Assembly: GCA_029945665.1 (NCBI GenBank)
Contig: JAQSCZ010000026.1
Coordinates: 1-37,992 of the forward strand
Direction of reading: 5' to 3'
DNA length: 37,992 nucleotides
Source: a bacterium
GTDB taxonomy: Bacteria > Bacteroidota > Bacteroidia > NS11-12g > UBA955
Numbering within the stretch: position 1 is the stretch's first letter; the number at the start of each line of letters is the position of its first letter. A program made the position numbers and the translations under genes. Below the pieces are notes generated by a model, which was not told the origin of the DNA, made no database searches, and saw nothing but the letters and a program-made list of their open reading frames with translations. Shown here piece after piece: positions 18,353 to 28,441 of this stretch.

Positions 18353-19729
18353 TTAAGAGAGCAGACGGTATTTTATCTTACCGTGATGCCTTTTATCCAT
18401 TGGTAAATTCATGAAAACAATGTCTTTTAATGTTGGCAGTTGCTCTTTGATTCTTTCCTTTAAATCTTCAGTTGCATCTTTTTCCATTTGAATATAAGCT
18501 TTGTTATTAATAACAGTGCCGAAAACTAAACCTTTTATATTTGCCAGTTTTTTCTCAATTTCCATGAGGTATTGACCATTGAATTGTTGGTTTAAGGGCC
18601 CCGTTAAAAACAAGTGTTGTTCTGAATTAAAATAGGCATAATCGCCAGTTCTGTGCCATATTTCCCCTTCAAATAAAATTTTATTTTGATGATAGGCCTG
18701 TTCTGAATCCATGTAGTTTTTAACGACATGTAAGCCCGTAACCATGACTTCTCCAGCCTCGCCATTCTTGCACAATTCTACTTGGTTATTCTCTGTTTTT
18801 ACAACCTTTAATTCTGTAAAATCATCAACTGAACCTGCGTATAATCCTGGCTCATTTTCTTTCATTATAACATCCATTGCATTGCAATGGGCAATAGGTT
18901 CGGCTTCTGAAGATCCATATAAAACTGTGAAATTTTCTGCGCTTATTTTTTGTTGTATTTCTTTGATTCTGGATGGAAACAAAGCTGCACCTCCACAAAT
19001 AATTTGTTTTAATGAAATGGTCTTTTCAAGCCTTTGACAAAGCTGATAAAGTACAAAAGGTGAAAAAGAAAGATGTGTAATATGATTGCTTTCTATTTCT
19101 CTAGCTAGTTGATAAAAATTAGATTCAGGCAGTGCACTTAATTTAAGGTTTGAGGAAATAAAGGTACTTATTCCCAATCCAAGATTCAATAAAATAACGA
19201 CAGGGAAATTGGTACACATTAAGGCCGCTTCACTAGTAACAATATGCGATTGCAGCGCTAAAAACTGAGCATTCACGATAGCATGGGTACGTATGACAGC
19301 TTTAGATGCCGACCCTGTGCCTGAGGTAAACGAAATAATAGCTGCTTGATTCGCCTGAACATCGGCAACCAAAAGGTTGGATGTTCCAGACTGAGTTAGG
19401 CGCGTATTTAACCATTTCAATTTCCTAAATGGCGCCTGAAGCCAACTAATCATGCGCACTTTGGGCGTGCATAACAACCCATCACATTTTATCTTTTGCT
19501 GAGCCATTTTAACATCTGCAAGACTGGTCCACTCTTCTACAAATACTAGCGTACAAGCATTGGCTAACAGCGCCAATAAAGCCGCGTACATTTCAATGCT
19601 TAGTGGATGTAAAACCAAAACTTTTTTTGAATTTACAAATCCTTTCATTTGAAATTTTATTTGAAAACCAGTTACAAGGTCTTTTAATTCAGCATACGTT
19701 ACTGAGCGGCTACCATGCTGAATAGCCAT
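18353..19729 (-). CDS. adenylate-forming acyl ligase (AMP-binding); real start probably ATT at 19801
   Basis: An ANL-superfamily enzyme expected to activate a carboxylic acid as acyl-AMP. P-loop TSGTGSASKAVIRTH, A5 motif YGSSEAEPIA in place of YGxTE, TGD in WHRTGDYAYF, and a C-terminal catalytic Lys in HHGKIKYRL are visible. Coordinates start at the first conventional ATG (MAIQHGSRSVTYAEL), but the frame remains open to 19808, and the upstream codons read FNIVRFFFEQAERNPQT, which is ordinary N-terminal sequence of this family. No ATG, GTG or TTG exists there; the candidate is ATT 19799-19801, overlapping the preceding stop as TAATT. That gives 482 residues. It is the last gene of the nine-gene lipid-type operon. 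The substrate is unknown. Confidence 0.85.
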   Translation of the reverse strand: MAIQHGSRSVTYAELKDLVTGFQIKFQMKGFVNSKKVLVLHPLSIEMYAALLALLANACTLVFVEEWTSLADVKMAQQKIKCDGLLCTPKVRMISWLQAPFRKLKWLNTRLTQSGTSNLLVADVQANQAAIISFTSGTGSASKAVIRTHAIVNAQFLALQSHIVTSEAALMCTNFPVVILLNLGLGISTFISSNLKLSALPESNFYQLAREIESNHITHLSFSPFVLYQLCQRLEKTISLKQIICGGAALFPSRIKEIQQKISAENFTVLYGSSEAEPIAHCNAMDVIMKENEPGLYAGSVDDFTELKVVKTENNQVELCKNGEAGEVMVTGLHVVKNYMDSEQAYHQNKILFEGEIWHRTGDYAYFNSEQHLFLTGPLNQQFNGQYLMEIEKKLANIKGLVFGTVINNKAYIQMEKDATEDLKERIKEQLPTLKDIVFMNLPMDKRHHGKIKYRLLS

Positions 19730-19800
19730 AGTTTGCGGATTGCGTTCAGCTTGCTCGAAAAAAAAACGGACGATATTGAAATTTAAATCTGAGATAGTAA

Positions 19801-20763
19801 TTACAGTTTATAGAGCACATAATGTTTAACATTTTCGGCTCCGTATTTTTTTGATAAAACTTTTGAATGGTTTTGTTGATGCATCATCGCATGGAATAGT
19901 TTTGAGACTTTATACTGTTTAGCCAGTAGCATCATTTCATTACTTAAAATCCTTCCAACGCCAGCGTATCTGAATCCCTTTCGCCTAGCAATGGTTTTGG
20001 CTGTCATGCAATTGTTTAATCCAGACAGGTAAGCAACCCCATATCCCACTAAATGATTCATTTCATCATATACCAATGGCATTAAATTGGTGTCTAAAAC
20101 GGACAGCATACGCCTATACTTTTCTTTAAAATCCAAATATTCAATTTGCGTAAAGAATGGCGCTGCTGAAAATGCGTCTATGGTGATCTCATAAATTTCG
20201 GGTAACAGTGCCTCCCATTCTGATTTGGATTTATAACTTACTATATAGCCTTGTGGAATTTTTAAATCAATTTCAAAACTTGTTTGCAACTGGGTATAAT
20301 AATTGGCCTGAACACGGAATCCTGTTTTTTCAAAAACAGTGGTATAAAACTCAGGATTGACAATGTCATTTGGAAATAAACATGGAACACCCTTTGCCGC
20401 CAAGCGGTAATTTTGCCAAGTGCTGCCGTTCACTGGACCTATAAGCAAAGCATCTTGATATTCGGATTGAAACATATTTTTAAAAAGTTCTAAAAACCCA
20501 ATCCCAGCTTCGCAGGTTAATGCTTCGAAATGCCCAATAAAAAACACTAATTTACCATCCATCAAAATTGAACTGCGATACAATACCCCTCGGGCAATTG
20601 CCTCATCAAATTCTAGTAACATAAATCCTTTAACAAAAGGAACTTCTTCAATCGCATTTATCTGATTCGCATAATTTAAATCATTGGCATAAATTGTTTT
20701 TGAAAGCTCATAAAACTGCGCCAACAAATTGGTATCCGATAAATTAAATTGCACCAAATCCAT
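19801..20763 (-). CDS. GNAT-like acyltransferase (YghO-type)
   Basis: A 320-residue soluble protein. The N-terminal part (FYELSKTIYANDLNY ... GVLYRSSILMDGKLVFFIGHFEAL ... LLIGPVNGSTWQNYRLAAKG ... FEKTGFRVQANYYTQ) follows the pattern of N-acetyltransferase-like proteins of the YghO type. The C-terminal half (NHLVGYGVAYLSGL ... RKGFRYAGVGRILSNEMMLLAKQY) looks like a GNAT acyl-CoA binding core. The substrate is unknown. Its ATG overlaps the stop of the kinase-like gene (TAATG), and its own stop overlaps the probable ATT start of the ligase. In a lipid operon, an N- or O-acyltransferase role is plausible but inferred. Confidence 0.65.
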   Translation of the reverse strand: MDLVQFNLSDTNLLAQFYELSKTIYANDLNYANQINAIEEVPFVKGFMLLEFDEAIARGVLYRSSILMDGKLVFFIGHFEALTCEAGIGFLELFKNMFQSEYQDALLIGPVNGSTWQNYRLAAKGVPCLFPNDIVNPEFYTTVFEKTGFRVQANYYTQLQTSFEIDLKIPQGYIVSYKSKSEWEALLPEIYEITIDAFSAAPFFTQIEYLDFKEKYRRMLSVLDTNLMPLVYDEMNHLVGYGVAYLSGLNNCMTAKTIARRKGFRYAGVGRILSNEMMLLAKQYKVSKLFHAMMHQQNHSKVLSKKYGAENVKHYVLYKL

Positions 20764-21413
20764 TATAATTGAAATAAATGCATAACGATGACCACTGTTA
20801 ATGGGATGGTAATATTATCAAATCCTTTCGGACTGAATAGCTCGGCAAAGGCCGCTATTATTGCACAAGAAAACATAAAAACCAAGGGAATTTGAAAACC
20901 TAGTAAAAGCAATACCAATTGCAAAAAAAGGGAGGTCACCAAGAATGCTAAAAAACCACCCAAGCTCTTATGCTCTTTGTGTATTTTTATTTTTTTAAGC
21001 GGATATCTTTTCCCAACGAGGGCGGCTGACAAGTCGCAAATGGCCAAATGTAATACCGGTAAATAAAAATACAAATACTGGTGATTTTTCCATTGAAAAG
21101 CCGCAAAAGAAATAATAACGGCCAATGGGAAAAGATAACTTCCATAAGTCGTTCTCTCTACCTTGTGAATGGACTGTAATTGGTTGATTTTTTTTGAAAC
21201 TGCGAGTATAACGGCAAACAACAGACAAAGCAATATAACCCATTGTATATCTTTAAAAAAATAGGGAAACAACAATGAAATAAGGCCAGCTGAAATATGG
21301 CTCCATTTGCGGGTTATTTCAACTTCGACATGAAAATAATGGTACAATATTTCACCGATTCCAAAAGCGCCCAGGAACATCGCCGACAATTTAATAAGTG
21401 ATATTATCTCCAT
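20763..21413 (-). CDS. CTP-dependent polyprenol/phytol-kinase-like membrane protein (VTE5/SEC59/DGK1 family)
   Basis: A 216-residue protein with about six to seven membrane helices. Family marks are RKWSHISAGLIS near residue 35, CDLSAALVGKRYPLKK with the Asp, KEHKSLGGFLAF, and the terminal AELFSPKGFDNITIPL. Members use CTP to phosphorylate lipid alcohols such as dolichol, phytol, farnesol or diacylglycerol. The sequence does not show which. It starts with ATG overlapping the preceding stop (TAATG at 21413). Next to a prenyltransferase, a cytidylyltransferase and a phosphatidyltransferase it would fit as the kinase that makes or salvages a phospholipid or prenyl phosphate (inference). Confidence 0.75.
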   Translation of the reverse strand: MEIISLIKLSAMFLGAFGIGEILYHYFHVEVEITRKWSHISAGLISLLFPYFFKDIQWVILLCLLFAVILAVSKKINQLQSIHKVERTTYGSYLFPLAVIISFAAFQWKNHQYLYFYLPVLHLAICDLSAALVGKRYPLKKIKIHKEHKSLGGFLAFLVTSLFLQLVLLLLGFQIPLVFMFSCAIIAAFAELFSPKGFDNITIPLTVVIVMHLFQL

Positions 21414-22480
21414 TAAATGGTAAATGAGTTGAGATTAAAAGATTGATAAAAAAAACACAAATCACTTCCTATTACAGGCAATTTATCGAACTTTATATCC
21501 AACGCATTTAGTTCGCGTTTTACCAATAAATTCCAATACGCTATCCGTGTATTAGGTTTGCATATTTTTATGATATGATCCTTCTGTATTTTAAAAGTGG
21601 TTTCATCCATGTATTCAAAAATATTGGAAAGATTCATAATATCAAATTTACGTTCTACCGGAATATCTGTTAATCCGCCGAGGAACAATTCCAATTTGTC
21701 AATATTCAATTTCACTTGATGAAAATGTTCAGGCATTAAATAATAAGGTAATTTTACATTAAAAATACCGCGCAATTGATAGTCTAAATAATAATTCCTG
21801 AACACTGCGGTACTTTGCAAATGCATTTCGGCTTGCCTAAAAATTGTTTCGGCTACTGGCAATTTATTTTCATTGAAAAACTGTGGATCCCTTCCATATT
21901 TTCCTAATATTTTTTTTGAAAAAAAAGCTTTAAACAATAATCGCCATCGCCAAGTATTCCATGTATTTTGATAAAATTCAATTTGTTCTTGTTCTGATTT
22001 AATCTCGAATAATTTATCAATCGTTTTTTGTGAGTGAATAAGTGGTAAAAACCACTTGCGAAACAAGCGAAAATAATTTTCAAATTTACCCTGGTGTATG
22101 ATGCCATTTTCAATTAAGGACATATGCTTCCTAAAATAATCTAGGGCTTCCAAACTGAGCGAATTTTGAATATGCTCAAACAATTGCAACCTTTGTTGTG
22201 AATCAACAAATCCAAGAAATTCTAATACCTCTGCATAAGCAAGCTGTTTAATGGCTACTTGCTTTAATTCTGTCAAATACAATTGAGTGGCATTGATATC
22301 AAAAGCCAATACGACTTGTGGACCATGGGCAAGGTATGCCAATGAATTATCACCTGCTGAGGCAATACTTAAAATACTTTCATTGGCCACGGGCAAAGTA
22401 TTTCCAATTAACAAAGTTGTATCCTCCCAGCAATTGGCATAACGAATAAAGGAAAAATCAACAGGTTTTTTTGTCATCAT
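21413..22480 (-). CDS. DUF3419 family protein, BtaA-like
   Basis: A 355-residue protein matching DUF3419 over its length: RYANCWEDTTLLI, the SAM-site-like SIASAGDNSLAYL, AFDINATQLYLTELKQVA, GIIHQGKFENYFRLFRKWFLPLIHS, GRDPQFFNE, FDIMNLSNIFEYMDE and RIAYWNLLVKRE. The characterised member BtaA moves a 3-amino-3-carboxypropyl group from S-adenosylmethionine to diacylglycerol, giving the precursor of betaine lipids. No BtaB-like N-methyltransferase is present. Two Met codons begin the frame (22480, 22477). The gene sits three bases after the CDP-alcohol phosphatidyltransferase. Family assignment is firm; the reaction here is inferred. Confidence 0.8.
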   Translation of the reverse strand: MMTKKPVDFSFIRYANCWEDTTLLIGNTLPVANESILSIASAGDNSLAYLAHGPQVVLAFDINATQLYLTELKQVAIKQLAYAEVLEFLGFVDSQQRLQLFEHIQNSLSLEALDYFRKHMSLIENGIIHQGKFENYFRLFRKWFLPLIHSQKTIDKLFEIKSEQEQIEFYQNTWNTWRWRLLFKAFFSKKILGKYGRDPQFFNENKLPVAETIFRQAEMHLQSTAVFRNYYLDYQLRGIFNVKLPYYLMPEHFHQVKLNIDKLELFLGGLTDIPVERKFDIMNLSNIFEYMDETTFKIQKDHIIKICKPNTRIAYWNLLVKRELNALDIKFDKLPVIGSDLCFFYQSFNLNSFTI

Positions 22481-22483
22481 ATT

Positions 22484-23083
22484 TTATTTTCTGGTCGTCG
22501 AACTATTTTTAAAATAGTGAAAAATTGTTTTTGCGTTCAAGACTGGTTCTTTAGAAATTAAATTAATAATGAGACCTTCTATTTCTGAATAATATCCAAT
22601 AAGCATGGCGGCATAAAAAATGGCAGGTACCATTTTAAAGGTGAACAAAATAAATAAAAATACCCCTTGAAAATATCCTGCAATTTTAGCGCTGTATAGA
22701 TGCAGTCCTGTTGATGGACGCCCAAATCGAATTTGGGGCACCACCATGGTTAGCATATAAATGACAACAAATATTGACAACCAATATCCATATTCTGTAA
22801 ATAAGTAAAAATGAAACACACAAATACCAGCAATGGCTGATAAATAACTACCAATATCTGCCAAAGAATCCAGTATGGCTCCTTCCTTTGTTTGCAAATT
22901 GAATCGCCTTGCAATAAAACCATCAGCAATATCTGTTATCAGATTAATGGAAAAGAAAACTACAAAAGCAGTTTCCAATTTTAAAGCAATGAACACAAGA
23001 ATAATTGGAAACATGCAAAGTCTGTACATGCTTAGCACATTTGGAATATTCCATTGGATGTCTTTTAATTTAAGTCCAAACAT
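22484..23083 (-). CDS. CDP-alcohol phosphatidyltransferase
   Basis: A 199-residue membrane protein with the complete signature D-x2-D-G-x2-A-R-x8-G-x3-D-x3-D at 51-76 (begins DIADGFIAR, ends GAILDSLAD). These enzymes exchange CMP from a CDP-alcohol (usually CDP-diacylglycerol) for an alcohol head group. About five to six helices are visible. It starts two bases after the stop of the CdsA-type gene, whose CDP-lipid product it would use. The head-group acceptor cannot be predicted; the signature alone does not separate PgsA, PssA and PIS types. Confidence 0.85.
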   Translation of the reverse strand: MFGLKLKDIQWNIPNVLSMYRLCMFPIILVFIALKLETAFVVFFSINLITDIADGFIARRFNLQTKEGAILDSLADIGSYLSAIAGICVFHFYLFTEYGYWLSIFVVIYMLTMVVPQIRFGRPSTGLHLYSAKIAGYFQGVFLFILFTFKMVPAIFYAAMLIGYYSEIEGLIINLISKEPVLNAKTIFHYFKNSSTTRK

Positions 23084-23085
23084 AT

Positions 23086-23793
23086 TTATACTTTATCAAC
23101 TAACATTATTACCATTAAATATAACATTACTGTTATAAAACTATCGAATCTATCTAACACACCACCATGACCAGGAATTAAATGATCAAAGTCTTTGACA
23201 TTGGCCATGCGCTTAATTTTTGATGCAATCAAGTCACCCATCAAAGCAAAAAAAGCAAAACCAATAAAATGCAATATAGAAAAATATTCCGAGGACTGAT
23301 AATTTATAACAACGTAGATGGCCATTATGGCGCTGAAAAAACCAAAACCCAGACCTTCCCATGTTTTATTGGGACTAATAATTGGGGTAAGTTTATGTTT
23401 TCCGAACAATTGTCCGCCAATTTGAGACATCCCATCGAAAATAACAACAAAAACAAATATCGGCAATATTATTTCCGCATTAAACCATACAAAATAAAAA
23501 CTGGATAACAGTCCAACGCCTAAATACAAAGCGAGGATTCTCCATTTTTGATACGGATTTAAATCAAGATTTATAAGTTCAAAGAAGCCTTTTAAAACAA
23601 TGGCTAAAATAAAGATGGCTTTTAAAATAAGTTGGTCCGAAATAATGATTACAGAAACAATTGTAACGATCCATAAATACCAGTGGTACTTTTTTTTCAC
23701 AGCTACAATGCTGGCACTTCTAATTTTGTATAGCACCGCAAATCCAGCTACCATAAAAAAGAAAAGCAACATAAAAATACAATTTGGTATCAT
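23086..23793 (-). CDS. CdsA-type phosphatidate cytidylyltransferase
   Basis: A 235-residue polytopic protein making a CDP-lipid from CTP and a phosphatidate-like substrate. The family signature is complete: ISPNKTWEGLGFGF, then SKIKRMANVKDFDHLIPGHGGVLDRFDS, the last block at about 204-218. It is shorter than typical CdsA (about 260-285), with fewer N-terminal helices. Its location inside a dedicated lipid operon suggests a second, specialised enzyme alongside a housekeeping CdsA elsewhere (inference). The ATG overlaps the preceding stop as ATGA (23790-23793). Confidence 0.87.
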   Translation of the reverse strand: MIPNCIFMLLFFFMVAGFAVLYKIRSASIVAVKKKYHWYLWIVTIVSVIIISDQLILKAIFILAIVLKGFFELINLDLNPYQKWRILALYLGVGLLSSFYFVWFNAEIILPIFVFVVIFDGMSQIGGQLFGKHKLTPIISPNKTWEGLGFGFFSAIMAIYVVINYQSSEYFSILHFIGFAFFALMGDLIASKIKRMANVKDFDHLIPGHGGVLDRFDSFITVMLYLMVIMLVDKV

Positions 23794-26264
23794 TCCTCAA
23801 TTATGGTTATTTCGCCAGTGGCACCATTCATTTCAATCATAGCATTGTCTTGCAGTTGTGTTGTAATATTTTTAATACCAACAATACAGGGTATATTCAT
23901 TTCGCGACTCACAATGGCCGCATGACTTAATACACTGCCTCTTTGCACCAATATACCTTTCACCAATGGAAACACAGCCACCCAGCCTGGATCTGTAGAT
24001 ATGGTTACCAAAATTTTTCCATCTAAAGCATGCACATCATTCGGTGAATGAATGATTTTTATTCTTGCTCTCACAATGCCTGGGCAACAAGGCAGTCCTT
24101 TTAAAACCAAATCAGTTCCATTAACCTCTTTTTCAAAAACTTGGTTGTAAACAATACCAGTTGTTCTTATTCTTGCCGTCTGGGGCACTTCATTTTTATA
24201 GGTTTCATACTCATGTTTTCGCAAATCAATTAAGCCTTTTAAATTTAGTTGTATGCTGGTGCCTTTGATAAAATGAAAAATTTCTTCCTTGCTTAAATAA
24301 AAAATATCGCGTGGTTGTTCGATGACATTCGACTGGTGAAATAATACCCCAATTCGACTAAAAATAAAACGAACTTCGGCAAAGGCACGGGTGCGTTCAA
24401 ATCGCAAATTTTCCCGGGAAGCAACGGTTTGAATGGCGTTGTGTTTTAAAAAATTAAAAACAAATTTCCTAAACCATGGCATACTTGGAAGTTTTAATTC
24501 CGCATGGCTTGTATTTTGTATTTTACTAAAAGCATAGGTTTGTTTCAACAATTTTATAAACAAGTACGGATCCTGAGCATAGGTAATGGTTTCGAGTTTT
24601 AACTCTTCAAAACAACGATTCCCCCATTTATCGAGATACTCATTAATTAAAATTGCAATCCTTTCTGTCTTGTGCGATTCCAACCATTGCCATATCTCAG
24701 CTTCATTTTTCTCGTCAAATAGTAAACATAGTTGACTATTTTCTTGAATAATCAATGCGATTCGTTGTTGCCATATAGCTGGTTCTGTTGTAATGACTTG
24801 ACCGGTATGAATCAAGAATTGATTGAGATTAATTTCTGAAGAATTGGCATATTTAGTTACAAATTTTTGAAACAACCCATAGTAAATCATCGCAAAGAAA
24901 TCATTTACCAACGGCGCCTTCCATTCCTTTGACAAGGTATATTCAAACTTATAATAAGCCATCATACAGGTAAAAGCATCCGCTTGAGGAATATTCAAAA
25001 GCTTATGTTCTGCAAGTACTTGGTTAAATTTAAGCAAAAAAGATTGTCTCATCTTTTTCAGTCGAATAGCATTTCCAACCATAGAGCAAATCAGTTTGAA
25101 CACTCTGACCTTTTCCACAAAACCATTGGGAGTTTTATAATCCTTTAATTCAAATTTCTCGCTTACCCCCATCATCTTTTCCATAAAGCCAGCATTAAGA
25201 CTATAACCGGGCAATAAAGACAATAACTTATACCAACTGTAAAGATTGTAATAGACCCTCCCCTTTAACAAACCAAGCATGTTATCGAAGGTGAATCGGT
25301 TGGCTTCTATGGTCGTATCATTGATACCCAAAATAGCACAAAACTGCCTGTAAACTGCCGCATACACTGGACTTATAAAAGAAAAGGTAAGTGGCAAACT
25401 AATGCCTGGATATGATTCTATAATATTACTATTGTCCCAAATTAGATAATCCGTGTTCTCATTTTTAAGCGTTGTGATGGGCCGACTTTGTAGTAAATAA
25501 AGTTGACTATTTTTTATACAAAACTCAATGTCTTGGGGTCCGTTAAACGAAACCTCCAAAGCCTTTGCAATACCTGCAATTTCAAGTACTTCAGATTCTT
25601 TGAGTGAGGCCACATTTACCGCTTCAGGTGAAACATTTACTTTTTCAATATCACTTACTTGTCCATAAATAAATTTTTCTGATTTTTCTGCCAATATCAT
25701 TTGATTTACTTTTTGATTTTTGACATAGAACAAATCTGCATCTAGCGCACCTGAAACAAGACCTTCGCCCAAACCGTAAACGCTGCTCACTACAGATGTT
25801 TCCTTATCATTGGTTGCTGGATTAGCGCTAAATACAACGCCAGAAACATCGGCCTCTATGCATTGTTGAATAATAATGGACAATTCAATTTGTATATTCT
25901 CTGTATTGTAAGCTACCACATTGTTGCTCTGCGTCGATTGCCAAACTGCTTGAATTGCCATTTTCAAATCTTCTTTTTTGACATTGAGTTTGGTACTAAA
26001 TTGACCTGCAAAACTTTTACCCAAGGAATCTTCTGCGTTAGCACTGCTTCTAACAGCATAAGAATATTCAACCCCCAAATGGACTGCAATCTCTTCGATT
26101 ACTGCATCGTTCAACACTAATTGATTTGCATTTGCAATCGTAATTAAGCTTTCATAAGGCAATACACAAAGCTTTGGAACATGGTATCCCAATTCTATTA
26201 AGGTGAATAAATGGCGGGCCTTATTGCCAATTTCAATGCCTTTGGTATTTCTTAGAATGAGCAT
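23790..26264 (-). CDS. PEP-utilising phosphotransferase, rifampin-phosphotransferase-like three-domain architecture
   Basis: An 824-residue cytoplasmic protein. The N-terminal PPDK_N ATP-grasp domain (about 1-270) has YAVRSSANAEDSLGKSFAGQ, VSGVVFSANPATNDKE, YGLGEGLVSGALDAD and GPQDIEF ending in LLQSRPITTL. A long, mostly helical middle domain (about 280-690) starts ESYPGISLPLTFSF. The C-terminal swivelling domain has the phospho-accepting His near 781 in QRGSVLSHAAIVSRE. The His domain is last and there is no C-terminal TIM barrel, so this is the Rph-like layout, not classical PEP synthase. Rph transfers the beta-phosphate of ATP to a substrate held by the middle domain. ATG 26264 (LILRNTKGIEIGNKA), one base after the UbiA stop, is preferred over 26276. 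Confidence 0.8.
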   Translation of the reverse strand: MLILRNTKGIEIGNKARHLFTLIELGYHVPKLCVLPYESLITIANANQLVLNDAVIEEIAVHLGVEYSYAVRSSANAEDSLGKSFAGQFSTKLNVKKEDLKMAIQAVWQSTQSNNVVAYNTENIQIELSIIIQQCIEADVSGVVFSANPATNDKETSVVSSVYGLGEGLVSGALDADLFYVKNQKVNQMILAEKSEKFIYGQVSDIEKVNVSPEAVNVASLKESEVLEIAGIAKALEVSFNGPQDIEFCIKNSQLYLLQSRPITTLKNENTDYLIWDNSNIIESYPGISLPLTFSFISPVYAAVYRQFCAILGINDTTIEANRFTFDNMLGLLKGRVYYNLYSWYKLLSLLPGYSLNAGFMEKMMGVSEKFELKDYKTPNGFVEKVRVFKLICSMVGNAIRLKKMRQSFLLKFNQVLAEHKLLNIPQADAFTCMMAYYKFEYTLSKEWKAPLVNDFFAMIYYGLFQKFVTKYANSSEINLNQFLIHTGQVITTEPAIWQQRIALIIQENSQLCLLFDEKNEAEIWQWLESHKTERIAILINEYLDKWGNRCFEELKLETITYAQDPYLFIKLLKQTYAFSKIQNTSHAELKLPSMPWFRKFVFNFLKHNAIQTVASRENLRFERTRAFAEVRFIFSRIGVLFHQSNVIEQPRDIFYLSKEEIFHFIKGTSIQLNLKGLIDLRKHEYETYKNEVPQTARIRTTGIVYNQVFEKEVNGTDLVLKGLPCCPGIVRARIKIIHSPNDVHALDGKILVTISTDPGWVAVFPLVKGILVQRGSVLSHAAIVSREMNIPCIVGIKNITTQLQDNAMIEMNGATGEITIIEE

Positions 26265-26265
26265 A

Positions 26266-27171
26266 TTACAACACAATTGAAATTCCTAAATTTAGATACA
26301 TACCTATGGCCCAAATACCTGAAATAGCCTCAAATAACTTACTGTTTTTCTTCGTTTGATGCACATAATAATACCACCCAAACAGGGCGGATACCACATA
26401 CAAAATAGCAAATACCAAAAAATGCCCTAATGCCAAATGGGCGTAATTAGCCGCTCCCAAACACAATAAAAAGGTAATGAATACCACTGTTTGAAAATAT
26501 AACATGGCTTTAGAAAAACCTAAAGCCTTGCTGTATGAATTAGCTTCTTCATTATCTTTTGACTTTATTTTTCGACCTAACTCCAAAGTACAACCATTAA
26601 AAAACGAAACTGCAAAAAACCACAACAACCCATTTACATTGGGTTGTTGCCCCATCCAATCGAATGAGCTAGCCATGGTATCAACTAGAGGAATTATCAT
26701 CATGTGACTGGCTACATAAAATACTTGATTTTTTTCAAGCCAATGTTTTATAAAAAATTCTTTAAACATGAGGCCACCATATAGCAAAACAAAAGTAAAA
26801 ATGAATAAATGCGCCGCTGCAAAAATTACATTAAAAATGATTAATAAAAACAAGACAGAAATACCCAATATTTTTAATTCACTCAGTGTCACTAATCCTC
26901 TAGGAACAGGGAGGTGTGGGCGATTGATGGCATCAAATTCTTTGTCTTTAAACTCATCTGAAATACGCAATAAAAGAAACAATAAAAATGTATTTATAAA
27001 AGCTTTAAAAAACGAATTAACATGAAACGACTCAATGGCGTTTCTGCAAATATTCGAAAAAGCCATGGCCGAAAAAGTAAAGGACGCAATTAAAATACCA
27101 TGGGCCAACAAAGGGAACCGTTCCTTTTGGTACTGCCAAAAACGCTGACCAATTTTACTACTACTTATCAT
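26266..27171 (-). CDS. UbiA-superfamily membrane prenyltransferase, divergent
   Basis: A protein of about 301 residues with eight to nine helices. The first Asp-rich motif is DEFKDKEFD followed by INRPHLPVPRG, like the canonical NDxxDxxxD/RPL-G block but with Asp in place of the Asn. The second Asp-rich motif is replaced by ELGRKIKSKDNEEANSYSKALG. UbiA enzymes transfer a prenyl chain to an acceptor, or a phosphoribosyl group to polyprenyl phosphate. I chose ATG 27171 (ISSSKIGQRFWQYQKERFPLLAHG) because the upstream open frame back to 27309 lies within the HMG-CoA reductase gene. The start overlaps that gene by 11 bases. Acceptor and donor are unknown. Confidence 0.8.
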   Translation of the reverse strand: MISSSKIGQRFWQYQKERFPLLAHGILIASFTFSAMAFSNICRNAIESFHVNSFFKAFINTFLLFLLLRISDEFKDKEFDAINRPHLPVPRGLVTLSELKILGISVLFLLIIFNVIFAAAHLFIFTFVLLYGGLMFKEFFIKHWLEKNQVFYVASHMMIIPLVDTMASSFDWMGQQPNVNGLLWFFAVSFFNGCTLELGRKIKSKDNEEANSYSKALGFSKAMLYFQTVVFITFLLCLGAANYAHLALGHFLVFAILYVVSALFGWYYYVHQTKKNSKLFEAISGIWAIGMYLNLGISIVL

Positions 27172-28441
27172 GTTTTCTTCCGAATTTCTGATGGGCTTGT
27201 GAGAATTGTCCGGAGGCGATGGCTGCTGCAATTGAAATTTCGCCAGCCAAAGCCAATGCGCCGCAAATTTCAGCAAACTTTTGCGCTTTACCATTGCCAT
27301 AACAATCAATCATTTCTAAGCTCTCTCTTTGGGTTGGCAAATAGGTTCCTCCGCCCACAGTACCCACAATTAAATTGGGTAAAGTAACACTTGCGTAAAC
27401 TCCCCCATCGGCTGTAAGTTCCATGCGCGTAATACCGACTGAAGCTTCCGAAACACAGGCTACATCCTGACCTGTTGCCAAAAACAAGGCAGTCAAACCA
27501 TTGGCAACATGGCCTTGTGCACCGATGGTACCACTTTGAATAACGCCTATCGTACTCGATTGCCAGTATTGCACCATGTCTTCAGGTTTACAACGCAATA
27601 TTTTTTCTACAACTTCTTTTCTTAAATGCACTTCAGAAGAAACCTTGCGACCTCTAACATGCATAAACGAGATGGCGGCGGCCTTTTTATCACCGCTGTA
27701 ATTGCTTTCGATAAACCATGAAGTAGGTTTAACAGGACTATTTTCCACCAACCATTTACATATTACATCGGTACAAATAGTCACCATGTTTTGACCTGCT
27801 GCATCGGCTGTATTAAATTCAATATTTATGATTAATTGGTTGCCCTCAATATTGTATTTAATATCTAAAATTTTAGCATGCTTACTTGTATCAGCTATCA
27901 ATCCTTGAAAAGATTCAGAATGCTCCAATGCAAAAATCAAGAATTGCCCCATGGTACCCATGTTTTCAAAACGGAAAACAGGACTTCTTTGCACGCCTTC
28001 TAAAAAACAAATACTGGTGATACCGCCACACATTCTGCTGGCCTTTGCTCCGCGGTGATAAGAGGCAACCAATGCGCCTTCGGTAGTAGCCAATGGCACA
28101 TAAAAGTCACCTTTAGCTGCTGTTCCTAATATATTGAGTGGACCAATAATACCCATCGGCACTTGGGCAGAACCAATAAAATTTTCGCAATTCCCATTGA
28201 CAGTGCTGGCATCATTGAAACCATGCCCATTGAAAATGACAGGAAATTTTTTGCCTGTTTTGACTTCTAAAAAAGCTTGTCTTTTCAATGTTCCTTCATT
28301 CGTATTGCGACCCTCGGTAGGAGGTGTTTCACCGGGAGTGGCTTCAGACTTCTGAATAATCTCCTTTATAAATTCCTCTATATTAACTCTCTGCTTGATA
28401 GCCTCGAGAGATCTTTTGGTAATATTAAACCCTGAACTCAT
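27161..28441 (-). CDS. hydroxymethylglutaryl-CoA reductase (class I type)
   Basis: A 426-residue enzyme reducing HMG-CoA to mevalonate for isoprenoid synthesis. Visible are ENFIGSAQVPMGIIGPL, the catalytic Glu in PLATTEGALVAS, the Lys in SGDKKAAAISF, the Asp in ATGQDVACVSEAS, GTVGGGTYLPTQRESLEM and the late His in QAHQKFGRK. It has no membrane domain. ATG 28441 (SSGFNITKRSLEAIKQR) is preferred; the frame runs to a TTG at 28459. It heads the nine-gene operon, and no other mevalonate-pathway gene is in the window. Gene name left blank because bacterial class I and II naming differs. Confidence 0.95.
   Translation of the reverse strand: MSSGFNITKRSLEAIKQRVNIEEFIKEIIQKSEATPGETPPTEGRNTNEGTLKRQAFLEVKTGKKFPVIFNGHGFNDASTVNGNCENFIGSAQVPMGIIGPLNILGTAAKGDFYVPLATTEGALVASYHRGAKASRMCGGITSICFLEGVQRSPVFRFENMGTMGQFLIFALEHSESFQGLIADTSKHAKILDIKYNIEGNQLIINIEFNTADAAGQNMVTICTDVICKWLVENSPVKPTSWFIESNYSGDKKAAAISFMHVRGRKVSSEVHLRKEVVEKILRCKPEDMVQYWQSSTIGVIQSGTIGAQGHVANGLTALFLATGQDVACVSEASVGITRMELTADGGVYASVTLPNLIVGTVGGGTYLPTQRESLEMIDCYGNGKAQKFAEICGALALAGEISIAAAIASGQFSQAHQKFGRKHDK

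Follow-up and report, generated by a model that had tools for sequence, protein, structure and literature searches.

A conserved bacterial gene set around an HMG-CoA reductase homologue that is probably not a mevalonate enzyme: a candidate undescribed lipid operon

Parts of several described systems meet in the locus studied here, a nine-gene minus-strand operon (g1 to g9) at positions 18353 to 28441 of a Bacteroidota contig (lineage NS11-12g; UBA955; JAQSCZ010000026.1 of assembly GCA_029945665.1). The window is the whole stretch of DNA that was analysed, 37,992 nucleotides long, and numbers preceded by G, C or L are our handles for genomes, contigs and loci. Phytol salvage combines a VTE5 kinase, a VTE6 kinase and a UbiA-family prenyltransferase; the operon likewise unites a UbiA protein with a lipid-alcohol kinase and a further phosphotransferase, whereas its second phosphotransferase is phosphoenolpyruvate (PEP)-synthase-like and a reductase, a DUF3419 protein, a GNAT protein and a ligase are added. 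The archaeal-type ether-lipid route consists of geranylgeranylglyceryl phosphate (GGGP) synthase, the UbiA-family enzyme DGGGPS, the CTP transferase CarS and a CDP-alcohol transferase. UbiA, a CTP transferase and a CDP-alcohol transferase are also present in the operon of this genus, but GGGP synthase is unlinked here and the conserved core of the gene set contains neither the CTP transferase nor the CDP-alcohol transferase. In the betaine-lipid pathway, BtaA-BtaB pairs are encoded by a DUF3419 gene next to an S-adenosylmethionine (SAM) methyltransferase gene. Further relatives are the class I 3-hydroxy-3-methylglutaryl-CoA (HMG-CoA) reductases (HMGR) and the superfamily of rifampin phosphotransferase, PEP synthase and prodigiosin ligase.

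We consider the operon to be an undescribed lipid pathway, made up of a seven-gene core and a pair of accessory genes, whose HMGR homologue has a function other than mevalonate synthesis, and put the probability of this reading at roughly 0.55. All parts belong to known families. Neither the gene set nor a non-mevalonate HMGR branch was found described in the one open-access full-text library searched, a scope that ends short of subscription papers and outside preprints; the neighbourhoods treated in PMC12419801 are other ones.

The first gene, g1 (27161..28441, minus strand, ATG start), encodes a class I HMGR homologue (PF00368, 372 bits) that scored 302.2 bits with TIGR00533, under the cut-off of 441.8. 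The HMGR pocket, as given in PMC7503714, is formed by Ser684, Asp690, Lys691, Lys692, Asp767, Glu559, Lys735, Asn755, Leu853 and His866, and PMC9500038 assigns the salt bridge to the HMG carboxylate to Lys735 and lists Ser684 among the polar contacts. Pocket positions were compared between 46 distinct homologues, the window included, and six comparison enzymes. The homologues were the operon enzymes, a non-operon Bacteroidota group of mostly 520 residues, and Vibrio, Alteromonas and Streptomyces plasmid proteins; two HMGR matches above 190 bits that had no locus (G447 and a fragment in G326) were outside the comparison.

Like the class I enzymes of human, plant, Methanothermococcus and Streptomyces mevalonate clusters, g1 retains the catalytic Glu559, Lys691, Asp767 and His866 as well as the pocket residues Arg590, Asp690, Lys692 and Asn755. 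Across the homologues R590, D690, K691, K692, N755, D767 and H866 were kept in 46/46 and E559 in 45/46, one sequence being truncated. Unlike those enzymes, the g1 family has Glu (42 of 46), Asp (2) or Ala (2) at position 684, and the K-N-L-x-G motif that holds K735 was present in 0/46; g1 itself carries Glu at 684 and no Lys at 735. Both S684 and the motif were found in five of the six comparison enzymes, namely three PDB chains and two Streptomyces mevalonate-cluster enzymes. Since the 46 sequences include proteins of non-operon Bacteroidota, Vibrio, Alteromonas and Streptomyces plasmids, the altered pocket reaches beyond the operon. The alignment shows that g1 retains the catalytic residues without the contacts to the HMG carboxylate. 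Judged by these residues, g1 is probably not an HMG-CoA reductase; reduction of an acyl thioester to an alcohol is its probable function, and a 3-hydroxyacyl substrate is plausible because Arg590 and Asp690 persist.

The non-operon group itself is represented by L109-L129 from 21 genomes of the phylum (e.g. G120, G129, G254, G435 and G494), mostly of about 520 residues, with Glu684 in 20/21, Ala in L127 and the Lys735 motif in 0/21. Ala684 is shared by L127 and L132, the latter on plasmid pBGP9 of Alteromonas macleodii, where the HMGR-like gene lies a few kb downstream of genes for an AMP-binding protein, an iron-containing redox enzyme and an SDR oxidoreductase.

The isoprenoid background was studied in 20 genomes chosen by hand, not at random, for their HMGR homologue, 15 with the operon and five with the L109-L129 group. 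A mevalonate decarboxylase above cut-off and no match to DXR were found in 10/20, and nine of these ten had a second HMGR. The other 10/20 had DXR and a single HMGR homologue, and no decarboxylase match reached the cut-off (a single weak one gave 21.5 bits); the operon was present in five of these (G123, G314, G365, G377 and G385), and the five tested genomes of the L109-L129 group likewise had DXR and no mevalonate decarboxylase above cut-off. By profile matches, the g1 family, operon included, thus occurs in DXR genomes without a mevalonate decarboxylase above cut-off, another difference from the class I HMGRs.

The preliminary description of this DNA, made from sequence alone, had proposed looking for the rest of the mevalonate pathway and for a second CdsA and PgsA/PssA in the same genome, and these searches were run. 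A separate HMGR at L055 scored 278.8 with TIGR00532 (the 'degradative' model; cut-off 259.95), and its neighbours encode a GHMP kinase over cut-off, a diphosphomevalonate-decarboxylase-like protein, a type 2 isopentenyl diphosphate-isomerase-like protein and a UbiA protein. L055 is a mevalonate operon, and the HMGR it carries belongs to the other class. The genome also holds a further CTP_transf_1 gene (G000:C111, 197.3 bits), PssA as the only other PF01066 match and, counting g2, eight UbiA genes above cut-off. GGGP synthase above the NCBIfam cut-off is encoded at G000:C1:60833-61498 (L147), unlinked to the operon, and the window genome could make a prenylglyceryl phosphate.

These data bear on the earlier proposal that g1 is a dedicated HMG-CoA reductase that raises the mevalonate supply for synthesis of a prenyl-ether lipid by g2. 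A class I homologue with all catalytic residues, in a genome with GGGP synthase and the mevalonate pathway, would suit such a role. Against it stand the loss of the HMG-carboxylate contacts in all 46 homologues, the five operon genomes in which DXR was found but no decarboxylase scored above cut-off, and the NAD_binding_4 reductases at L088 and L089, where HMGR was unseen. We regard the proposal as very unlikely; the assignment of g1 as a mevalonate enzyme was rejected on the pocket residues and the methylerythritol phosphate (MEP) pathway genomes, and a role in isoprenoid entry is unsupported.

The seven-gene core consists of the HMGR-like, UbiA, PEP-synthase-like (PEPS), DUF3419, lipid kinase, tandem GNAT and AMP-ligase families. 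All seven co-occur in the window, L028, L032 (Portibacter lacus), L039, L046, L086, L087, L090 and L091, and an alphaproteobacterium, Roseinatronobacter sp. S2, carries the whole core on a plasmid. Gene order differs in L090 and L091, where GNAT and AMP-ligase are upstream of HMGR. A contig scan with g6 gave nine loci, all in records named Bacteroidota or Kapabacterium relatives. PEPS was upstream of DUF3419 in eight of them, as direct neighbour except at L028, where CdsA and the CDP-OH transferase sit between the two; at the ninth locus (Kapabacterium) the contig begins inside DUF3419, followed by g7, g8 and g9. Contig ends interrupt the core in metagenome-assembled genomes of Flavobacteriales, Persicitalea and Kapabacterium; the Persicitalea locus spans PEPS to g9, and three Flavobacteriales loci hold five or six genes.

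Matches to g2 were found in 23 of the 108 genomes of the order (own included), and in all ten non-self matches above 200 bits UbiA adjoined PEPS. Matches to g6 were present in 44 of 395 genomes of the phylum, again with the own genome included. Eleven of the non-self matches exceeded 160 bits: eight had PEPS and g7 within 1.5 kb, the ninth (L088) had PEPS 2 kb upstream, and in the vicinity of DUF3419 at the remaining two (L092, L093) no PEPS was found. The genes g4 and g5 accompanied the core only in G000, G044 and G062, at differing positions. Rows left out of the counts were L038 (same cluster as L028), L085 (whose genes are arranged as in L032), identical copies of HMGR sequences, and L101-L103, L106 and L107 (present via longer loci).

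Altogether, these neighbourhoods show that the genes have been kept together as a set and that CdsA and the CDP-alcohol transferase are optional rather than core, and because the core recurs in distant genomes the set is beyond chance. Both had been tried as core members and were rejected. The dedicated lipid-type operon of the preliminary description, for which a neighbourhood comparison had been suggested, is supported as a conserved unit, recurring in Portibacter lacus, other Bacteroidota and the alphaproteobacterial plasmid; its size shrank from nine genes to a seven-gene core. The "full phosphorylation, CDP-activation and head-group route" claimed there was weakened, as g4 and g5 are with the core in three genomes only.

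The nine minus-strand open reading frames between 18353 and 28441 in the window's list bear out the earlier count of nine same-strand genes. Junctions in transcript order are -11, -11, -4, +2, +3, -1, -1 and +71 bases, so that the previously stated range of -11 to +3 holds for seven of eight and fails at g8-g9. That gap of 71 bases is counted from the g9 ATG at 19729; the frame is open back to 19807, without ATG, GTG or TTG in that stretch. One transcript for g1-g9 is likely, with the g8-g9 junction looser than the rest. The gap could also be taken to mean that the nine genes belong to two or more unrelated units adjoining by accident, as could the absence of CdsA and the CDP-OH transferase from most relatives, their different placement in the G062 cluster (L045), and the position of GNAT and AMP-ligase in L090 and L091. 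Such an explanation is hardly credible given that the seven core families reunite in distant genomes, one of them alphaproteobacterial, that junctions overlap, and that DUF3419-GNAT fusions occur.

Fusions and replacements among the relatives affect the reductase and the kinase in particular. An APH-type kinase domain was present in 5/5 long HMGR homologues (L040, L044, L050, L051 and L054), and at these five loci g7 was not in view. In L040 and L044 the HMGR-APH gene lies beside the cluster on the opposite strand, and DUF3419 is fused to GNAT. At L089 a NAD_binding_4 reductase precedes PEPS, with no HMGR seen; at L088 UbiA and PEPS follow genes for a NAD_binding_4 reductase and a YegS-type kinase, and neither HMGR nor g7 was seen. 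The HMGR-APH fusions and the reductase/kinase swaps point to consecutive action of the two enzymes, presumably the reductase before the kinase. A second UbiA-PEPS pair (UbiA2-PEPS2) at L050, L051 and L054 is accompanied by HMGR-APH, a CDP-alcohol transferase and a match below cut-off to the CDP-archaeol synthase (CarS) model, the only model that the CarS-like protein matches; this adds to the likeness with the archaeal-type route. L051 and L054 have an additional ICMT/PEMT-type methyltransferase and a desaturase. L088 and L089 each hold a phosphatidylserine-decarboxylase-like gene, and their set of this gene with NAD_binding_4, UbiA, PEPS and DUF3419 is possibly a variant with a decarboxylated head group.

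The DUF3419 protein g6 (21413..22480, minus strand; PF11899, 189.5 bits, 1.4e-55) shares its family with BtaA of the betaine-lipid pathway. Its predicted structure (mean predicted local distance difference test score, pLDDT, 94.0) has a large helical insertion, and PDB matches of the model in Foldseek were weak partial SAM-methyltransferase cores only; among solved-structure sequences a single weak match was obtained, to an unrelated kinase-like protein. We predict a SAM-dependent aminocarboxypropyl- or methyl-transferase. In the tree, g6 belongs to an 18-sequence clade (support 0.99), outside which lie L096, L097 and L099, the BtaA-type DUF3419 genes that adjoin a SAM methyltransferase. No BtaB-type methyltransferase was found by Pfam and NCBIfam among the nine genes, the rest of the genome lying outside that search. 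In contrast to BtaA, g6 and its relatives are accompanied by PEPS and mostly by the lipid kinase. An ordinary BtaA was thus rejected for g6 on the separate clade and the lack of such a partner within the nine genes, and the betaine-like head group suggested earlier was weakened by the position of the clade apart from the methyltransferase-linked copies.

It is unlikely, then, that the operon makes a betaine-like lipid, with DUF3419 as a true BtaA acting on diacylglycerol and the remaining genes modifying its head group. The strong DUF3419 profile match would agree with it, and the DUF3419-GNAT fusion would fit N-acylation of an aminocarboxypropyl group. Methyltransferases do occur nearby: DUF3419 is fused to a PEMT-type methyltransferase in L092, outside the core clade, and in L045 HMGR is closely preceded by a methyltransferase-like gene (PF10672), flanks of the other clusters having been scanned only in part. 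Yet the methyltransferase-paired copies fall outside the operon clade, the nine genes offer no BtaB, and HMGR, UbiA and PEPS would be left unexplained.

The preliminary description had named eight activities, and the unnamed ninth is g3 (23790..26276, minus strand), whose likely start is the ATG at 26264. This protein has the ATP-binding domain (PF01326, PPDK_N, 173.7 bits) and the mobile His domain (PF00391, PEP-utilizers mobile domain, 79.4) of the rifampin phosphotransferase/PEP synthase/prodigiosin ligase superfamily, with an SH[AST]AIV-type motif. In contrast to that superfamily, it lies beside a UbiA gene and remained below every NCBIfam cut-off shown (PRK06241.2-2, 670.9 bits against 883); the Pfam search returned no further domain and no C-terminal PEP/pyruvate-binding domain. 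As only the ATP-binding and mobile His domains were found, g3 seems closer to rifampin phosphotransferase than to PEP synthase.

Prodigiosin ligase models matched g3 as well (RedH 245 bits, PigC 227 bits), which raises the possibility of a diffusible or pigment-like secondary metabolite, e.g. a beta-lactone or a prenylated amino product, with g3 acting like a prodigiosin ligase and an OleC-like ligase forming a reactive ring. The ligase g9 (18353..19729, minus strand; PF00501, AMP-binding, 101 bits), an AMP-forming acid ligase with the motifs WHRTGD and P.D.RH..KI, had PRK09274 as best NCBIfam match (171.7 bits, below the cut-off of 478) and OleC models lower down (77.4 bits against a cut-off of 850, 61.1 against 900). 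A secondary metabolite would also fit the patchy distribution of the cluster (in 108 genomes there are 11 UbiA matches above 200 bits, counting the window's own) and its plasmid location in Roseinatronobacter. We nevertheless find this explanation rather doubtful: g3 scored far higher with PRK06241.2-2, four products are of lipid or membrane type (UbiA, g7, CdsA and the CDP-OH transferase), and the profiles run detected no transporter, polyketide synthase or peptide synthase among the nine genes, whose flanks were scanned only in part.

The remaining products are a UbiA-family membrane transferase, two accessory enzymes, a putative lipid kinase and an acyltransferase. For g2 (26266..27171, minus strand; PF01040, 44.9 bits) a motif table of 20 sequences was made. 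The first Asp-rich motif, R..DE[FHY]KD...D, was found in 19/20, all those in which the stretch is present, and the second takes the form [ED].GRK[IL].....E in 20/20. The canonical second Asp-rich motif of UbiA is D...D. The accessory gene g4 (23086..23793, minus strand) encodes a CdsA-type CTP transferase (PF01148, CTP_transf_1, 121.9 bits; PRK11624 71.2 bits, below the cut-off of 385) with an intact KR....KD.....PGHGG..DR.D pattern, which we take to be the CDS (CdsA) signature and which reads KRMANVKDFDHLIPGHGGVLDRFD in the translation. Its neighbour g5 (22484..23083, minus strand), a CDP-alcohol phosphotransferase (PF01066, CDP-OH_P_transf, 76.1 bits; below every NCBIfam cut-off), has an intact DxxDGxxAR...G...D...D motif, DIADGFIARRFNLQTKEGAILDSLAD in the translation, presumably that of the CDP-alcohol phosphotransferases.

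Neither g7 nor g8 of the window gave any Pfam or NCBIfam match. The assignment of g7 (20763..21413, minus strand) as an integral-membrane lipid kinase of the dolichol/phytol kinase type comes from motifs and from weak matches of its homologues: RK..H, D..A...G, K...G and E.....G.DN were invariant across 14 aligned homologues, three of which weakly matched CTP_transf_1 (best 3.4e-4). Longer relatives (L087, L090, L091 and Roseinatronobacter) have the form KSVEG, which is close to the dolichol-kinase-type CTP site, D..A...G...G(8)KKT.EG. A CTP-dependent lipid kinase is probably encoded. The lipid kinases of L087, L090, L091 and L130 have 439-461 residues with an extra C-terminal half, and no Pfam match was found for the two tested, L087 and L090. 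By its predicted fold (pLDDT 91.6; top PDB matches tandem GNATs), g8 (19801..20763, minus strand) is a tandem GNAT, an acyltransferase family, and 11/18 of its homologues matched Acetyltransf_1 (best 2.2e-11).

From families, fusions and swaps we infer each catalytic step of the lipid pathway proposed here. An acid would be adenylated by g9, and g1 would use NADPH to form a primary alcohol from an acyl thioester that has no terminal carboxylate and may be of the 3-hydroxyacyl type. This alcohol would be phosphorylated with CTP by g7, or in relatives by the reductase-fused APH kinase or the YegS-type kinase; g3 may use ATP for a second phosphorylation, which is the least secure step of the scheme. 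The activated chain could then be moved by g2 onto a membrane acceptor, g6 would add an aminocarboxypropyl group from SAM and g8 would N-acylate that group, while in this genus g4 and g5 would add a phospho head group. A broader version is offered tentatively, as a possibility with the odds against it: a widespread bacterial HMGR-family branch would have left isoprenoid metabolism to become acyl-thioester-to-alcohol reductases, and the operon alcohol, possibly a 1,3-diol, would be the backbone of amino lipids of a new class, phosphorylated by the CTP kinase and the PEPS-like enzyme, joined by UbiA and given an N-acylated aminocarboxypropyl head.

Several observations weigh against our reading of the operon. 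On the side of the pocket, the sixth comparison enzyme, the control Sinorhizobium L140, which adjoins acyl-CoA carboxylase genes outside any mevalonate cluster, has neither S684 nor the motif, and the E559 column is T in two Streptomyces controls. The K735 column is offset by one from a gap, which is why the K-N-L-x-G motif was used for the test. Vibrio enzymes, with Asp at 684, also have neither contact; a Vibrio HMGR that reduces HMG-CoA would weaken or even overturn the pocket argument, and acquired Vibrio HMGRs are the subject of published work. E684 might simply pair with K692, leaving the substrate open. G062 has a mevalonate decarboxylase, 1.7 kb from the start of a contig, but no HMGR was detected there besides the operon-type one. 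As UbiA is a prenyltransferase family, the pathway may draw on isoprenoids even if g1 does not supply them. Among the related loci, L041-L043 have neither HMGR nor g7 in view (the L041 genome carries an HMGR-APH gene on a different contig, L051), and GNAT is not in view at L045. With AMP-ligase out of view at the related L050, L051 and L054 and at L088 and L089, the link from the ligase to HMGR is weak.

If the proposed lipid pathway is real, many bacterial genes that match HMGR models, some in MEP-pathway Bacteroidota, would have been misread as mevalonate enzymes. A new lipid pathway would extend across Bacteroidota and an alphaproteobacterium, DUF3419 would have a role outside betaine lipids, and PEP-synthase-like enzymes one in lipids. 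Single-protein assays are possible for each step, and two carriers are named strains, Portibacter lacus and Roseinatronobacter sp. S2.

A few further arrangements were seen. The PEMT-DUF3419 fusion (L092:4328-11870), without PEPS, is near genes for a YegS kinase, a GNAT protein, an Orn/Arg-type decarboxylase and a class II aldolase. Divergent DUF3419 genes at L094:9548-11771 and L095:8309-10541 each adjoin a gene for a protein of 379-401 residues, which at L095 gave a weak GNAT match (E 0.003). Between GNAT and AMP-ligase, a small Polyketide_cyc2-like (START-like) protein is encoded at L032:14894-15469 (Portibacter lacus) and L086:7638-8210 (a genome within its genus group), the match in L086 being below the Pfam cut-off.

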